Assembly: GCF_003610355.1 (NCBI RefSeq)
Contig: NZ_RAPY01000002.1
Coordinates: 1-64,000, forward strand
Length of the DNA stretch: 64,000 bases
Source: Sphingobacterium detergens
GTDB lineage: Bacteria > Bacteroidota > Bacteroidia > Sphingobacteriales > Sphingobacteriaceae
Direction of reading: 5' to 3'
In this document: in pieces, positions 5,019 to 57,588 of the stretch
Layout: each line of letters begins with the position of its first letter
Position numbering within the stretch: the first letter of the stretch is position 1
The notes under the pieces: model-generated
Database searches by the model: none
Told to the model about the DNA's origin: nothing
What the model saw: the letters and a program-made list of their open reading frames with translations, nothing else
Position numbers and translations under genes: made by a program

Positions 5019-5852
5019 TTAAATAAGCAATTCTTTTTGTTTGACATACTCACTGGGGCGAATACCTACGACTTTATTAAATGTATTACTAAATGTGGGC
5101 AAGCTGTTATATCCAACTTTCAAAGCCACTTCATTGACACTTAGTTTTTCATCCAATAACAACTTGAGTGCAGTCAACATTCTCAGGATGGTATAGTATT
5201 GGATAAATGACATATTCAATTCCTTCTGAAAGAGTCTCGCCAATGTACGTTCGCTGATATTAAAGAGGCTTGCAAGTTTTTTGAAGCTTACATTTTCTTC
5301 GATATTCTCTTCCAGATAAGTAACGATATCTTTTAATTTTGGATGGCTTGGATAAGGCAATGCCAAGGGAAGTTCGTGTAGCGATAATTCAGGGAGAATA
5401 AGTTTAAATGCCGTAGCTAAGCTATATTTAGGTTCTTCAACAGGGAATATATTACCATTCCAACGATTGGTAAACATGATCAATTCAATCAGTAGATCGT
5501 TTACTGGGTAGATGCCCATTTTGCTGTAGAATGCGGTATCATTATTCGTTTTTGGAAAATAGAGATTACGCATCACTACCTCAGGAGTACTTGGATGAAT
5601 ACTATGCTTTACACCAGCGGGAATCCATAGATAATGTCGGGCCGGCAGAAAATATGATTTTTCATCTGTTTTTATAAAGACGACTCCACCCTCTGTATAT
5701 AAAAATTGATCCTTTTCATGACAATGCTCAGTGATATGATTTTCAGCTATGATGGCGTGATGGCAATAGATGCTATCTTGAAATGAATCAACCTCCGTCA
5801 TATAGTAGCGGTTGACATATTTTGAATCGCTCGTTGTATCTTTTATGTTCAT
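5019..5852 (-). CDS. AraC-family transcriptional regulator with cupin sensor domain
   Basis: A 277-residue regulator. Residues about 25-110 form a cupin-like effector domain (HHAIIAENHITEHCHEKDQF, then PAGVKHSIHP). Residues about 170-275 form the double helix-turn-helix AraC domain (KLASLFNISERTLARLFQKE and VNEVALKVGYNSLPTFSNTF, ending GIRPSEY). The ligand is unknown. It is the first gene of a leftward pair with the DUF1080 gene, and a TAnnTTTG box lies just upstream. It is also divergent from the CoA-transferase, so either could be its target. Confidence 0.92.
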   Translation of the reverse strand: MNIKDTTSDSKYVNRYYMTEVDSFQDSIYCHHAIIAENHITEHCHEKDQFLYTEGGVVFIKTDEKSYFLPARHYLWIPAGVKHSIHPSTPEVVMRNLYFPKTNNDTAFYSKMGIYPVNDLLIELIMFTNRWNGNIFPVEEPKYSLATAFKLILPELSLHELPLALPYPSHPKLKDIVTYLEENIEENVSFKKLASLFNISERTLARLFQKELNMSFIQYYTILRMLTALKLLLDEKLSVNEVALKVGYNSLPTFSNTFNKVVGIRPSEYVKQKELLI

Positions 5853-5874
5853 TTTTTCCTATAAAACTACGCTG

Positions 5875-5882
5875 CAAAGGTA
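5875..5882 (-). promoter_or_regulatory. -7 box for the AraC-type regulator
   Basis: On the minus strand this reads TACCTTTG (TAnnTTTG), 22 nt before the start codon. No clear -33 TTG was found. Confidence 0.45.
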
Positions 5883-6286
5883 AGACTTTTTTACTAGACC
5901 TGACCTTCTTACTGTTAAAGTGAGTGTATGCTTACAATAAAATTGCAATTAAATAGCTAGAGAGTTAGTATTTACTTACTTGGTTTTAAATTGATTTTTT
6001 TTAATTCGTTGAAAGCTAGGTTGATATGAATTATATTTCTGTTTTTATAAAAATAACTGGAAATATATTTTTATTTATTTCACTGAACAGCAGTGTATTA
6101 CGGTTGTTTCGTCTCCATTGAATAATTTTGTGTCGAATGGTAATAAATTCACTGTATAAAAAAACGTTAAAATTGTTTGTTTAAGAAATGTTCACTGACG
6201 TTTAATATCTTTTAAAATAGCGGATATAAATAGGTTTCAATTTCTTAAGTTTACATGAATAGCATACAAAATAAAATTATAAGGAT
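5883..6286. other. AT-rich intergenic region between regulator and CoA-transferase
   Basis: About 400 bp without a plausible gene on either strand. A TAATTTTG box at 6123-6130 could be a -7 element for the CoA-transferase, but the nearest TTG is only 16 bp upstream. I see no strong hairpin. Confidence 0.5.
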
Positions 6287-53692: not shown

Positions 53693-54622
53693 TTGAACGC
53701 TGCACCGAAATTGTTAAAAAAGTATTGGTCTTCCAGTTCGGGACACCGCAAATACTACGGGATTGTTGCCTTACAGCTCTCTTTTATGGCCGGAGTTGGC
53801 ACCTATGACCTGGTCAGACAACATGATGAAATCTATTATGTCGCTGATGAGCTTTTCGATAAACATTTTCGCTGGATAGTAGCCGGTATCTTCGCTTATC
53901 TAATGGGGATACAGTTGTTGTGTATTAAGCTATTCCTATGGGTATGCGATCTGTTAAGGAAGCGGCAGCCGATTTTGCCTGTATTTCTGATGCAAATTGT
54001 ACTTTTTACATGCTTGTTTTCTTTTATTCTCCCTTTCCTGAACCAGAAATTGATGGAATTGATCATGTTAAAGGTTTTGGATATGGCGCAACCGGATATC
54101 GCCTTTCTCCATGATAAGTATAATAGGAGCCGTCTGTGGCTCACGCTATATCCTCTTACCTGGATTCTGTTGATTTATTGGCGATCCAATAAAAGGAAGC
54201 GGCAACAGATCCATTATCTTGAAAAGAGCAATGCGCAACTGCGATTGGATATCGAACAGTTACTATTTGCGGAATATCTGAGTACAGCATTTCTGGTGAT
54301 CCGCAAGCAGGGTGGTATTGCTTACGAACTCACTTCAAAGGGAGAATTGTTACTTATTGCGCGTGGGAACTATGCAATGCATCGTTTTATAGCTATGTAC
54401 TGTACACAGATTTCAAAAGCCGTATTTATCTATACACCGGATATTATCGGAGTCAATAGAGAGGAATCCTATATTGAGATTCCCAACCATCTATTTCAAG
54501 TGATGAAAGCCGCGATTAAAAAATATGCGAAGCTTGCGGAAATTGTTCAGGACATTAAAAGCCGTCATGGCCTGTTGCATTTGTCTAAAATATATATGGA
54601 TCATATTGATCCAAAAAAATAG
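53693..54622 (+). CDS. Uncharacterised four-helix membrane protein
   Basis: A 309-residue protein with about four transmembrane helices (residues 23-40, 62-88, 98-122, 152-166). A short coiled segment (QIHYLEKSNAQLRLDIEQL) and a cytosolic C-terminal domain of about 110 residues follow. The layout resembles sensor proteins of the LytS/LytTR kind, but I see no kinase or clear LytTR motif. The only in-frame start that keeps the first helix is TTG 53693; the next ATG is at 53786. It is the first gene of the cassette that also holds the HTH-like gene and the 21-bp array. Confidence 0.5.
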   Translation: MNAAPKLLKKYWSSSSGHRKYYGIVALQLSFMAGVGTYDLVRQHDEIYYVADELFDKHFRWIVAGIFAYLMGIQLLCIKLFLWVCDLLRKRQPILPVFLMQIVLFTCLFSFILPFLNQKLMELIMLKVLDMAQPDIAFLHDKYNRSRLWLTLYPLTWILLIYWRSNKRKRQQIHYLEKSNAQLRLDIEQLLFAEYLSTAFLVIRKQGGIAYELTSKGELLLIARGNYAMHRFIAMYCTQISKAVFIYTPDIIGVNREESYIEIPNHLFQVMKAAIKKYAKLAEIVQDIKSRHGLLHLSKIYMDHIDPKK

Positions 54623-54746: not shown

Positions 54747-55193
54747 ATGTCAAGAGTTGTGCTTATCACGCAATTGCAACAGACATTGATGCAATTATGG
54801 GATCTGGAGATCCAAGCCACATTATCCGAGATTCCGACCCAACAATTATTGGAGACCCTAAAGGAACGGCTGACCGCCAGTCCTGCCACAGCCGAGGAGC
54901 AGGCTACACTAAAAACACTTTTTCAGCCCATTGGACATGTACCTGACGAAGAGCCCTTGTTGACGGATATTCCCGAACATGTCAGTGTCGGCTGGATCGT
55001 CACCAAACTGGGCATCGCACATTCTTCCTTCTACCGATCGGTGCATAATATCCTGTTATTTCCTATCCTGAGGATCGGTAATAGGCCTTATTATTTGAAA
55101 GCTGATGTATTGGTTTTATTTGATAAAGTGAGGGGAAAAGGATCCTATTTTTTGGGAAGAATGGCCAGTAAATTAAAGTCCGGAGGAGGCTAA
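54747..55193 (+). CDS. Small DNA-binding (winged-helix/excisionase-like) protein
   Basis: A 148-residue protein. The C-terminal half (SVGWIVTKLGIAHSSFYRSV, then FPILRIGNRPYYLKADVLVLFDKV) has the layout of excisionase/MerR-like winged helices used as site-specific DNA binders, as in helix-turn-helix domains of mobile elements. The N-terminal half is helical. Its stop codon (55191-55193) is followed at once, in the same reading frame, by the 21-bp repeat array. That suggests it either binds the array or was once longer. Confidence 0.6.
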   Translation: MSRVVLITQLQQTLMQLWDLEIQATLSEIPTQQLLETLKERLTASPATAEEQATLKTLFQPIGHVPDEEPLLTDIPEHVSVGWIVTKLGIAHSSFYRSVHNILLFPILRIGNRPYYLKADVLVLFDKVRGKGSYFLGRMASKLKSGGG

Positions 55194-55760
55194 ACTGAAA
55201 AAAGTCCGGCAAAAGCTGATCGGTTTTTGCCTTTTGCTAGTCACTCTTCCAAAAAAACTGAACAGTTTTTACCTCAGACCGTCCGGTTTTGGCTAAGGAC
55301 TGGTCAGTTTTTACCAGGGACTGAACAGACTTTGGAAGAAACCGTTTGGTATTGCCAAAATAGTTACCGGTCTGTGGAGACGACTGTTCAGACTTTGGGT
55401 GTAACTGTACACTTTGTTTGAAATCCCGATCAGTTTCTTGCAGCTAGTGATCAGGTTTTCCTCCAGACTGATCAGTTTTCAGTAGAAAGCGAACAGCTTT
55501 TTCTGGAAACCGTTCACCTTTTCGAACGGACTGTGCAGTTGTTACTGATAACTGATCAGTTTGTGCCTGGTACTGTTTGGTTTTTAACAAATGCTGGACA
55601 CTTCTTGCTAAATACTGAACAGTATAGGCCAACTACTGAATACCTTTTATTAGAAACTGGACAGTATTTACTAAAAACTGATCACTTTTTTGAAAGAACT
55701 GATCACTTGTTGTGAAATACCAATCACTTTTTTCGAATAAGTGGTTGGCAAAAGCGAAGA
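55194..55760. repeat. 27 in-phase 21-bp degenerate repeats with palindromic core
   Basis: Units start at 55194 + 21n without a single insertion or deletion through 55740. The consensus begins ACTGATCAGT (self-complementary) and continues with TTTT. Exact ACTGATCAG occurs at 55467 and 55551; most units keep CTG and CAG/CAC around a variable centre. The period equals two DNA turns and seven codons. In the frame of the upstream gene it reads as heptads like TDQFLxx, broken by TGA at 55419 and 55713; the opposite strand also reads as TDQ-type heptads because of the palindrome. Short ORFs here are by-products of the period. The array is too degenerate for CRISPR, and units differ from each other, so it is not recent amplification. 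Confidence 0.88.
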
Positions 55761-55807
55761 AGTAGTCCCAGATTGGGGCAAATGTTGAAAATATTCACCC
55801 AAATGTT

Positions 55808-55837
55808 GTCCCAGTTCGTCCCAGTTTGTCCCACATT
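55808..55837 (+). repeat. Three 10-bp direct repeats GTCCCAGTTy
   Basis: GTCCCA recurs at 55808, 55818 and 55828 with exactly one-turn spacing, between the 21-bp array and the FN3 gene. A related AGTCCCAG occurs at 55764. On the minus strand each contains GGGAC, like the -35 of the ECF-like motif, but no CGTC lies at the right distance. It may be an operator for the downstream genes. Confidence 0.6.
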
Positions 55838-55943
55838 TCGTTAGGCCTCTTTCCCTGCAGCTATGTTTGTGTCAAGATGTTCGTCCGGAAGCGCATCGAA
55901 ACAGAATTTTAAACTGGGAGCAATCCCACAAAAAACAATTAAC

Positions 55944-56576
55944 ATGAGAAAGAAAAAACTAATATTAGATTACAAAGGCGTAAATGATGATGAATTCAAT
56001 ACGCTAATCGGGAAGGTGATCGACTGTCTGACGGGGCACCCTGTGCTCAGCACACCTCCTGTCGCGTTGGTGGATCTTAAAACACAGGCTGATGATTTTG
56101 CAACGAAATGGCAACGTGCCAGTCGTGGTGGCAGTATATTGGAAATCGCAGAAAAAAATGCCGCGAAGGAGACACTTGCCCTAAGTCTCAAGGATCTTGC
56201 CTTTTATGTCAACAAAGTGGCTGATGGCTCACGTGCCATCTTGCTGAGCTCGGGATTAATCCTCGAAGCAGATCCCAAAAGTACAGATACGCCAGAGGTC
56301 GTTACTGAGGTGAGTCTGGTGGATGGTAGACAACGAAATCAATTGTTGGTCAAGTTTAAAGCTCAGAAATCTGCGATCATGTACGAGTATCAGGTGGCAA
56401 ATGCGATGGACGCTGACGGTGAACCGCTCTGGGGTGACAGCTTTGATACCAGTAAAAGTTATGGAAATGTGTTTTCACCGGTTTTTCCAGGGCAGATCTA
56501 TTATTTGCGCGTCCGTGGCCGTAATAAAAAAGGGGTAGGGGACTGGAGTGCTGTAGCTAGCTTACGTACAAGATGA
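55944..56576 (+). CDS. Fibronectin type III domain protein
   Basis: A 210-residue protein. The N-terminal about 110 residues are helical and uncharacterised (NTLIGKVIDCLTGHPVL, VDLKTQADDFATKWQRA). Residues about 120-210 form an FN3-type beta-sandwich ending QIYYLRVRGRNKKGVGDWSAVASLRT. There is no signal peptide. I start at ATG 55944, because the longer frame starts in the repeat-rich leader. Its stop overlaps the next start (ATGA at 56573-56576), so the two are translationally coupled. Such FN3 proteins occur with phage-like or surface genes in Bacteroidota. Confidence 0.75.
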   Translation: MRKKKLILDYKGVNDDEFNTLIGKVIDCLTGHPVLSTPPVALVDLKTQADDFATKWQRASRGGSILEIAEKNAAKETLALSLKDLAFYVNKVADGSRAILLSSGLILEADPKSTDTPEVVTEVSLVDGRQRNQLLVKFKAQKSAIMYEYQVANAMDADGEPLWGDSFDTSKSYGNVFSPVFPGQIYYLRVRGRNKKGVGDWSAVASLRTR

Positions 56577-57031
56577 CACAGCTGATCGTCAAACGAATCA
56601 GACAGGGGAATAATAGTACCCTGTCTGAACTCTCTATCGCGGGGCAGTTTGTCTGCTTTGGATTGGAGGATCGGATCCGCAAAGAGAAAATCCCTGGGCA
56701 GACAGCCATTCCCGCAGGAACCTATCCGCTCAAGCTACGAAAGGCAGGTGGTATGCATGATCGGTATACGAGACTGGTCCCCAAGATACATCAGGGCATG
56801 ATCGAGATCTGTGCGATCCCCAATTTCACTTATGTCTACATCCATATGGGCAACAATCATCACCACACCGCTGGTTGCCTGCTTGTGGGCAATATATGGA
56901 TCCGGGATCTAGGAGATTATATGGTACATGAATCCAGACTCGCTTATCTGGCCCTATATCAACGCATTTTGCAGCTGATGGAGGAGGGGGAACTATGGAT
57001 CAGTATTCATGATCCAGAACAATTGTTTTAA
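56573..57031 (+). CDS. DUF5675 family protein
   Basis: A 152-residue protein of the DUF5675 family, known from phages and Bacteroidota chromosomes. Conserved features include CFGLEDRIRKEKIPGQTAIPAGTYPL, YTYIHMGN-type YVYIHMGNNHHHTAGCLLVG and a terminal WISIHDPE. The His-x-Gly and Cys residues resemble an L,D-transpeptidase-like catalytic arrangement, so a role in peptidoglycan is possible but unproven. It is coupled to the FN3 gene upstream and followed by two small membrane proteins, similar to a lysis or cell-wall module. Confidence 0.8.
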   Translation: MTQLIVKRIRQGNNSTLSELSIAGQFVCFGLEDRIRKEKIPGQTAIPAGTYPLKLRKAGGMHDRYTRLVPKIHQGMIEICAIPNFTYVYIHMGNNHHHTAGCLLVGNIWIRDLGDYMVHESRLAYLALYQRILQLMEEGELWISIHDPEQLF

Positions 57032-57059: not shown

Positions 57060-57434
57060 ATGAAATCAATAGTAAAAAAAATAAGTAGTGCCTTGCAAGT
57101 CATCCTTATGGCCCCGGTAAAATTGCCTGCGAAAATAGTGGGAATTGTCAAATATCTGGCTCTCGGGCTGGGGATTGTCGAATCTGTGCTCGATGGAGAC
57201 GAAAAGCCTGACAGCGAGGTAACGAAGGAAAGTCCGAAGCTGGTGGAGGACCGTACTGATAAAGACCAACAGCCAGATCAAGCAGCACTGGAAGAGGAAT
57301 CAACTATGCCGGAGAATAATACTTATAGAGACCCGCAGATAAAAAAAGCGAAACTGAGTGAGGAGTCGGCTCTGCTCGAGGAAACATCGGAACTGCATGA
57401 TCCGGGAAAGGAGGTCAGGCATGCGGATCAATGA
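57060..57434 (+). CDS. Small protein with N-terminal hydrophobic helix and acidic tail
   Basis: A 124-residue protein. Residues about 10-45 form a hydrophobic/basic helical segment (VILMAPVKLPAKIVGIVKYLALGLGIV), and the rest is a charged low-complexity region rich in Glu, Asp and Lys. No family is recognised. It overlaps the next small gene by 14 nt, so the two are probably translated together. Confidence 0.6.
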   Translation: MKSIVKKISSALQVILMAPVKLPAKIVGIVKYLALGLGIVESVLDGDEKPDSEVTKESPKLVEDRTDKDQQPDQAALEEESTMPENNTYRDPQIKKAKLSEESALLEETSELHDPGKEVRHADQ

Positions 57435-57588
57435 TATTCGGCTGGGGACGATCGGTGGTACAGTATGCTCGGTCTGGGCCAGTGTCTCGCTAGGTGATCT
57501 TGGCCAGACTGTCCTGACTGCCGCTATCGGAACCTTGGTGAGCTTTGGCCTAGGTCGGCTACTGGCACAATGGCGCCGGCGAAAATAG
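57421..57588 (+). CDS. Small transmembrane protein (holin-like)
   Basis: A 55-residue protein with one or two hydrophobic helices (GTIGGTVCSVWASVSLGDL, TVLTAAIGTLVSFGLGRLL) and a basic tail QWRRRK. I start at ATG 57421, inside the end of the previous gene. Size and layout resemble small phage holins, and the neighbour is a DUF5675 protein; no direct homology is recognised. Confidence 0.55.
   Translation: MRINDIRLGTIGGTVCSVWASVSLGDLGQTVLTAAIGTLVSFGLGRLLAQWRRRK

Follow-up and report, generated by a model that had tools for sequence, protein, structure and literature searches.

What keeps 27 divergent DNA units at exactly 21 bp from one another, and what might read them? The question arises in a stretch of 64,000 nucleotides from Sphingobacterium detergens (contig NZ_RAPY01000002.1, positions 1 to 64,000; called the window here), in which a tandem array occupies positions 55,194 to 55,760, between a gene for a small winged helix-turn-helix (HTH) protein and a gene for a protein with a fibronectin type III (fn3) domain. 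We conclude, with a probability of roughly 0.56, that dimers of the adjacent winged-HTH protein, which is MerR/RacA-like, use the array as a platform and that this platform precedes the promoter of a lysis-like cassette. That the array is a binding platform is well supported, and we infer that the HTH protein is its binder.

Fixed spacing and dyad symmetry of the units

The units of the window array start at 55,194 + 21n and run up to 55,760, and all 26 steps are 21 bp with no indel, as an earlier note on this DNA had claimed. That note was also right that the units diverge from each other: their mean pairwise identity is 0.51, and Tandem Repeats Finder reported a 3-unit stretch alone. The consensus (A)ACTGWWCAGTTTTTnsn(A) makes each unit a dyad-symmetric site, with a core of the form ACTG(A/T)(A/T)CAGT (consensus ACTGWWCAGT) followed by a T-rich stretch. 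Over the 27 units, the base counts along the core were A23, C23, T21, G24, A15/T7, T15/A9, C22, A21, G18, and T19, and T was found 18, 23, 20, and 20 times in the four positions of the tract. The palindromic core and T-tract described earlier therefore stood, but the exact word ACTGATCAGT occurred in just two of the 27 units; the first and last units fit the consensus poorly. In the 530 bp past the HTH stop codon, autocorrelation reached z = 12.7, 13.6, and 14.3 at lags of 21, 42, and 63 and stayed at or below 2.6 for every other lag between 5 and 62, so the 21-bp period is not due to chance. The array begins at the base right after the TAA of the HTH gene and ends about 180 bp ahead of the fn3 gene. 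For a CRISPR-like (clustered regularly interspaced short palindromic repeats) reading, the units lack a division into repeat and spacer, and no cas genes were noticed by eye among the neighboring open reading frames.

The window array belongs to a class. Of 93 genomes in the genus, 40 encode relatives of the fn3 protein; in the family, counting many weak matches, relatives are present in 83 of 301 genomes and 12 of 25 genera. We fetched 79 loci besides the window, giving 80 entries, of which two (L069 and L096) are the same place, so that 79 are distinct. The fn3 gene is present in all 80 entries, and an iterated profile placed a window-type HTH gene upstream of it in 63 (62 within 1.6 kb; in L073 it is 3.8 kb off), with most arrays starting near the stop codon of the HTH gene. 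In the stretch past the HTH gene, mean autocorrelation over the 63 loci was z = 6.83, 6.56, and 5.97 at lags of 21, 42, and 63; no further lag in the range of 5 to 62 gave more than 0.34. When an array was defined by z ≥ 4 at lag 21 or 42, 66 entries qualified, or 64 without L096 and L119 (low complexity, score undefined); thus 64 of the 79 distinct Sphingobacterium loci have a 21-bp period ahead of the fn3 gene, usually past a small winged-HTH gene. These arrays hold about 12 to 37 units, and the unit consensus varies by locus: ACTGwwCAsT, AAAGkGwTCrCTTT, AAGGGAwysCTT, TTTGTACA, ATGTA...TACAT, TACTG...CAGTA, and TTGATTmATCA.

A scan of 858 kb found 560 scan windows with a period of 21 bp compared to 60 at 28 bp, 12 at 23 bp, and six or seven at each further period from 15 to 30 bp, nearly all of these coming from one low-complexity locus. 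The 79 places with a 21-bp period comprised 71 upstream of the fn3 gene or its operon, four solo arrays (far from both HTH and fn3 genes) that had been fetched as such, and four others (L062, L100, L152, and L153). In 40 control stretches (20 leaders of ribosomal RNA [rRNA] operons and 20 contig ends), the 21-bp z was never above 3.0. In other genera, an array preceded the fn3 gene or its operon in 12 of 20 loci, and eight of these 12 were dyad-symmetric.

To what extent is the spacing itself held? Over 57 distinct arrays (with one copy of the L069/L096 double removed), 1,268 of 1,306 steps were 21 bp when other spacings were penalized and 1,167 of 1,312 when they were not, compared to 19% in shuffled arrays, the share depending on the penalty (97.1%, 94.0%, and 88.9% at penalties of 5, 2, and 0). 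The homologous loci were checked for other spacings: steps of 20 or 22 bp exist in the arrays and are rare, and they do not refute the selection for spacing that the earlier note had proposed. That selection is instead supported, given that the 21-bp steps persist at a mean unit identity within arrays of 0.44. The unit consensus was dyad-symmetric (p ≤ 0.05) in 59 of the 64 distinct arrays (61 of 66 entries before L119 and L096 were removed; the L069/L096 double was retained in the unit-identity count and in the pairing and Mantel tests below). This symmetry, together with a motif kept in copies away from the genes, also supports the proposal of a multi-site binding platform. The fixed spacing points to a protein aligned on one face of the DNA, probably the adjacent small DNA-binding protein.

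Two readings in which no protein reads the array were weighed against this one. The period equals seven codons, and the frame that runs on from the upstream gene contains two stops only, as had been noted, which would suit a degenerate heptad-coding extension of the upstream protein. The other five frames of the window array contain 10, 16, 11, 13, and 3 stops, however, and any open frame at all was found in seven of 63 arrays. Compared to a copy in the same genome (L045), the window array differs by 77 substitutions and no indel, whereas the flanks differ by 38 substitutions and two indels; the 77 substitutions fall 21/30/26 on the three codon phases, without bias. We therefore rejected the coding reading, whose chance we consider practically nil. 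A genuine heptad-coding 21-bp repeat was seen inside a small downstream gene at L062 (3815 to 4137) and is unrelated to the array.

Alternatively, the array could be transcribed and act as RNA, or extrude cruciforms from its palindromes. The units are self-complementary at the level of the consensus, and pairing was above z = 1.64 in four of 57 arrays (L090 at 3.1, L122 at 2.5), but it was below −1.64 in seven, and overall 3,276 of 8,147 facing positions across the dyad within units could pair, or 40.2% versus 41.6% expected (z = −3.5; 57 arrays). The stems would be just about 3 to 7 bp, and Rfam yielded nothing relevant, its two weak matches to microRNA models both lying outside the array. 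Pairing was thus no higher than when the bases were dealt at random, and we rejected RNA hairpins and cruciforms as very improbable. The lack of covariation between facing positions makes hairpins unlikely and fits a dimeric protein: the half-sites vary independently while the consensus is symmetric, as expected when a protein dimer binds double-stranded DNA.

Scattered arrays and the motif of their genome

The genome of the window (G000) contains five arrays in total, at 1.563 and 2.697 Mb of contig C1, 55 kb of C2, 571 kb of C3, and 97 kb of C8. The other four (L045 to L048, with 26 to 27 units) lie away from both genes, L045 together with gene fragments: it is a detached copy (5086 to 6011; contig C1, about 1.563 Mb) of window positions 55,096 to 56,002, lies between unrelated genes, and carries the 5′ end of the fn3 gene along with the 3′ end of the HTH gene, which has a one-base gap. 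The copied extents differ, with L048 corresponding to about 55,196 to 55,891 and L046 and L047 reaching little past the array, and we therefore rejected a fixed-end transposon. The motif scores per unit of L045 to L048 were 15.4, 13.0, 10.5, and 11.8. When neutral decay of a copy of equal ungapped identity was simulated in 100 runs, the means were 9.2, −4.8, −4.9, and −4.6 and the maxima 11.1, −1.0, −1.0, and −1.6.

Solo arrays were also present in genomes G009 (L166 to L168), G091 (L172 to L176), and G056 (L177), and profile searches of the surrounding sequence fetched for these nine detected neither an HTH nor an fn3 gene. Among 17 arrays of four species, a set that left out the G009 entries L169 and L170, the 32 pairs within species had a motif similarity of 0.90 and the 104 pairs between species one of 0.74. 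Restoring L169, a misfit, gave 0.88 versus 0.74, and removing close copies with L169 kept gave 0.86 versus 0.73; none of 5,000 label permutations reached the within/between differences. Eleven of 15 solo entries were closest to the HTH-locus array of their own species among seven such arrays. The scattered arrays thus keep the motif of their genome above neutral decay and are mostly matched within the genome. For pairs of fn3-locus arrays within a genome, mean motif similarity was 0.32 compared to a null of 0.30 (56 pairs, two of them above 0.7).

Could such copies be satellite-like DNA that has no function in binding, with recombination spreading it and exchange between units (concerted evolution) maintaining its register and motif? 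Solo copies do exist, the substitutions that separate the window array from L045 occur in clusters (19 adjacent pairs versus 10.5 expected; per-unit variance, p = 0.0065), some arrays of other genera are nearly uniform (L154, L156, and L157), and the four G091 arrays that share an rRNA leader are about 84 to 97% alike in pieces. Such an origin does not account for motifs that are unrelated and yet dyad-symmetric, a 21-bp pitch that stays constant across genera, the siting of arrays at the HTH/fn3 junction, or the retention of the motif at about 55% identity, and we regard the satellite explanation as distinctly unlikely.

The G091 arrays with the shared rRNA leader form a case of their own. 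Two of them (L173 and L174) end about 523 bp before the 16S gene, and in the other two (L172 and L176) the contigs end before 16S; all four lie just ahead of promoter-like TATCTTTG boxes. Their likeness makes it likely that they spread with the rRNA operons. None of 20 rRNA upstream regions in G075, G044, G104, and G108 contained a 21-bp array, and a general rRNA-operon array was accordingly rejected. Upstream of 16S in G104, a genome without the fn3 gene, L191 and L193 show a 22-bp period (z = 4.6 and 4.1).

The adjacent winged-HTH protein and the downstream genes

The proposed binder is encoded at 54,747 to 55,193 (+ strand), and its stop codon abuts the array. The protein has 148 residues, about 75 of which precede the winged HTH and form a helical N terminus, partly helical in a low-confidence model. 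That AlphaFold2 model has a winged-HTH fold with a mean predicted local distance difference test score (pLDDT) of 66, and its neighbors in the PDB are RacA, BldC, pSK1 Par, MerR-type regulators, and Xis, RacA being the best Foldseek match by E-value. Two relatives of the protein scored below the cut-off for HTH_17 (PF12728), at 24.5 and 20.1 versus 27 bits, and the window protein itself had no match to that family. Motif distance between loci correlated with the distance of the HTH proteins (Mantel r = 0.59, p = 0.001). One trio of loci fits: L090 and L100 share both the recognition-helix stretch and TGTACA, and L112 differs in both. We also considered the residues of the recognition helix as the sole determinant of the motif, which was not supported (partial r = 0.05, p = 0.13).

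Several observations weigh against the HTH protein as binder, or against parts of the case for a platform. The Foldseek E-value of the model was 0.015 at best, and the fold Z was at most 5.8, a middling and common value, with CbpM, which is not a DNA-array binder, on top; a Pfam search with the window protein gave no match up to E = 0.1. Motif distance correlated with fn3 distance almost as with HTH distance (r = 0.55), leaving a partial correlation of 0.27 with the HTH protein given fn3, and the recognition-helix stretch added no significant signal. L121 and L100 share 83% of that stretch at a motif similarity of 0.32. Thirteen arrays have no nearby HTH gene, and their information and symmetry equal those of the others. 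In other genera, where the HTH type of the window is often missing, arrays stand ahead of lone fn3 genes at which no HTH gene was recognized (L154 to L159 among them), and four of those 12 arrays are not dyad-symmetric. The share of 21-bp spacing, as said, varies with the penalty used. With regard to species matching, one G009 array (L169/L170, on two near-identical contigs) bears the motif of another clade, for which no matching HTH gene was found in G009, and L175 and L176 match another species equally or better. Finally, the solo arrays of G009, G091, and G056 were searched for with the genome's own motif, which favors a match, and the lists were read by eye. For this reason, we made crosswise searches in G000 and G009. 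G009 searched with the G000 motif gave 96 matches and no row, two of the matches being inside G009's own arrays. G000 searched with the G009 motif gave no clear new array, known arrays aside, among the matches listed (100 of 145); these included two places with two matches each (C1, 606.5 kb and 1134.8 kb), with cores 17 and 22 bp apart.

The persistence of arrays without an HTH gene nearby is what would be expected if a dimeric protein other than the adjacent one were the binder, for example, a nucleoid protein from an unlinked gene or, at the loci that have one in the neighborhood, a response regulator of the LytTR type. In five of 21 gene contexts (L052, L057, L062, L063, and L065), REC-LytTR genes (cluster c7) lie upstream of the HTH gene, at some loci with histidine-kinase-like genes (Pfam checked in L057 and L062). 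LytTR regulators bind repeats about 21 to 22 bp apart, which resembles the period of the arrays. Known LytTR sites are non-palindromic direct repeats, however, whereas the array units are palindromic; the gene upstream of the array in the window has no Pfam match to LytTR; and a conserved nucleoid protein would not predict a motif that changes from genome to genome. We consider another dimeric binder unlikely, though with a real chance of being correct.

The number of arrays per genome (five in G000, four of this clade in G009, and six in G091) and the fold neighbors RacA and pSK1 Par raise the further thought of a centromere-like or anchoring platform, on which the HTH protein and the scattered arrays would position or organize the chromosome or an ancestral element, in the manner of RacA or of single-protein plasmid Par systems. 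The fold match to RacA and pSK1 Par is weak and common to ordinary MerR regulators. No motor or anchor gene, including a motor nucleoside triphosphatase of the ParABS, ParMRC, or TubRZC type, was noticed by eye in the 21 contexts, with family searches covering selected proteins only, and most arrays lie upstream of one operon type, although the search was built that way. We hold such a role to be quite improbable.

The operon downstream bears on what a platform for the HTH protein might control. Past the array in the window, a spacer (55,761 to 55,861, +) leads to TATGTTTG (55,862 to 55,869, +), a candidate Bacteroidetes-type −7 box 75 to 82 bp ahead of the fn3 start. TAnnTTTG, which we take to be the Bacteroidetes −7 promoter motif, was found between array and fn3 gene on the gene strand in 27 of 55 relatives (the window itself left out) and on the opposite strand in five, compared to 6.6 expected from shuffling. 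Given this enrichment on the gene strand, the array often precedes a promoter-like box, as it does at about half of the tested loci. Repeats of GTCCC(A/G), partly 10 bp apart, were seen between array and promoter in the window (55,763 to 55,836) and in L051, L058, and L067.

The first gene past the array (55,944 to 56,576, +) encodes a 210-residue protein with a helical N terminus and the fn3 domain, whose match is below the cut-off (16.8 versus 25 bits). It is followed by a DUF5675 protein (56,573 to 57,031, +; PF18925, E = 3.7e-25; phrog_1501), from a family of unknown function also found in phages; a small protein of 124 residues (cluster c10; 57,060 to 57,434, +), with relatives behind DUF5675 in L052 and L069; and a 55-residue reading frame (57,421 to 57,588, +) that, weakly and by eye, is possibly holin-like. 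In the 21 contexts, the fn3 gene keeps company with DUF5675 in 10 and with a CHAP-type hydrolase and a small lipoprotein or membrane protein in eight (in L059 the hydrolase is ahead of fn3); the L057 hydrolase has matches to Pfam CHAP and among the endolysin families of phages. The fn3 cassette would thus seem to be a regulated, phage-derived lysis-type cassette. The fn3 protein had no match in plasmid and phage collections and one weak relative in viral contigs, and we rejected phage or plasmid carriage of this protein. Upstream of the HTH gene, a protein of 309 residues (53,693 to 54,622, +), with hydrophobic segments by eye, gave no match in a family search; it has relatives at the equivalent place in L053, L056, and L067.

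In the reading we propose, the array consists of many operators in a row, to which a homodimeric DNA-binding protein would bind, most likely the product of 54,747 to 55,193. Each 21-bp unit contains one palindrome, which would give room for up to 27 dimers along about 570 bp of DNA, all on one face and two helical turns apart. From its place immediately ahead of the promoter, the row would serve as an all-or-none switch or silencer of the fn3/DUF5675 cassette or, elsewhere, of an fn3/holin-like/CHAP endolysin/lipoprotein cassette. The same HTH protein may act on the solo arrays of its genome. Recognition sequence and protein would drift together in each lineage while the packing of neighboring dimers fixed the 21-bp pitch; both the cooperative packing and the direction of regulation are presumed.

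A broader and more tentative possibility is that these are family-wide DNA platforms whose conserved signal lies in the pitch and not in the sequence. Together with its several arrays per genome, a small HTH protein would then form a regular protein-DNA rod, protein and motif would be re-invented in step between species and paralogous systems as private codes with the 21 bp kept, and the rod would serve as a chromatin-like switch for lysis-type cassettes, other loci, and, in one species, rRNA operons. Searches of an open-access library turned up no description of tens of palindromes exactly 21 bp apart, scattered over the genome, with a motif that varies by locus and species. If the HTH protein is the binder, the loci offer tens of natural protein/array pairs from which to read the evolution of a winged-HTH code, each array supplying, at fixed spacing, a motif with some 12 to 37 examples, and the within-species match of scattered arrays makes the co-evolution of a regulator with many sites directly testable. 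In that case, the arrays would further reveal the way in which long, regular protein-DNA assemblies are made in bacteria, and how a lysis-type cassette, dangerous as it is, may be kept silent or set off in an all-or-none manner.

Variants of the arrangement were seen in the set. In L106, L113, L118, L127, and L128, autocorrelation is higher at 42 bp than at 21 bp, and neighboring units seem to alternate. In L145 to L147, the gene directly before the array, which ends about 1 kb ahead of fn3, encodes a different small HTH-like protein (by eye), as though this had taken the place of the MerR-like protein. One further genus has the array at the operon end, where it overlaps the 3′ end of a lipoprotein-like gene (L152, 553 to 1180; L153, 5215 to 5723). 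HTH paralogues in L004, L005, and L006 are followed by GC-rich arrays (1838 to 2092, 1166 to 1426, and 1861 to 2122) with an 11-bp period, about one helical turn; these have 23 units and dyad p of 0.003 to 0.02. G000, the genome of the window, holds one such paralogue with its 11-bp array (at about 218 kb of C1), and in L006/L130 the 11-bp array is followed by a further DUF5675-like cassette. Words of the ACTGGTCAC/GTTACT type form short arrays with 21- and 23-bp units, which are another kind of repeat (L100, 998 to 1222; L052, 4009 to 4228).

Comparison with known systems

Helically phased sites upstream of promoters and beside the genes of their binders have precedents. The Fis upstream activating sites of rRNA operons are helically phased and lie upstream of the promoter, like the G091 arrays before 16S; those arrays were seen only in G091, with none in the 20 rRNA upstream regions of four other genomes. 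Plasmid iterons and centromere repeats, of about 20 to 22 bp or 11 bp, are helically phased and located beside the gene of their binder. Unlike them, the arrays have a motif that is renewed in each species, and no replication or motor protein was noticed with them. Repeats also adjoin the gene of pSK1 Par, a single-protein plasmid partition system. Its DNA-binding domain (PDB 8csh) is weakly similar in fold to the model of the window HTH protein. pSK1 Par is plasmid-borne, whereas the arrays are chromosomal, with several copies per genome and tens of units, and the fn3 protein has no plasmid or phage match.

RacA of Bacillus subtilis is similar in its weak fold match; its sites are dispersed and not known to form tandem arrays, and the match does not extend beyond the DNA-binding domain. 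RacA binds as a symmetric dimer of winged HTHs (PMC5859096), and the sites found here are palindromic. The same source describes BldC of Streptomyces, also a MerR-like winged-HTH protein, several subunits of which bind a row of direct repeats head to tail on one face of the DNA and form a protein-DNA filament (PMC5859096). The BldC structures 6ama and 6amk were among the Foldseek matches of our model (pLDDT 66), weakly (E of 0.17 and above, probability 0.82 to 0.97, Z = 4.8). BldC consists of a winged-HTH domain only, in 68 residues, and its direct repeats are short (PMC5859096), whereas the window protein has the additional 75 or so residues ahead of that domain and the arrays contain about 12 to 37 palindromes 21 bp apart. 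When the sites alone are compared, the dyad-symmetric units in 59 of 64 arrays speak against an asymmetric head-to-tail binding of the BldC type. MerR-type proteins that line up on repeats are already known (PMC5859096).
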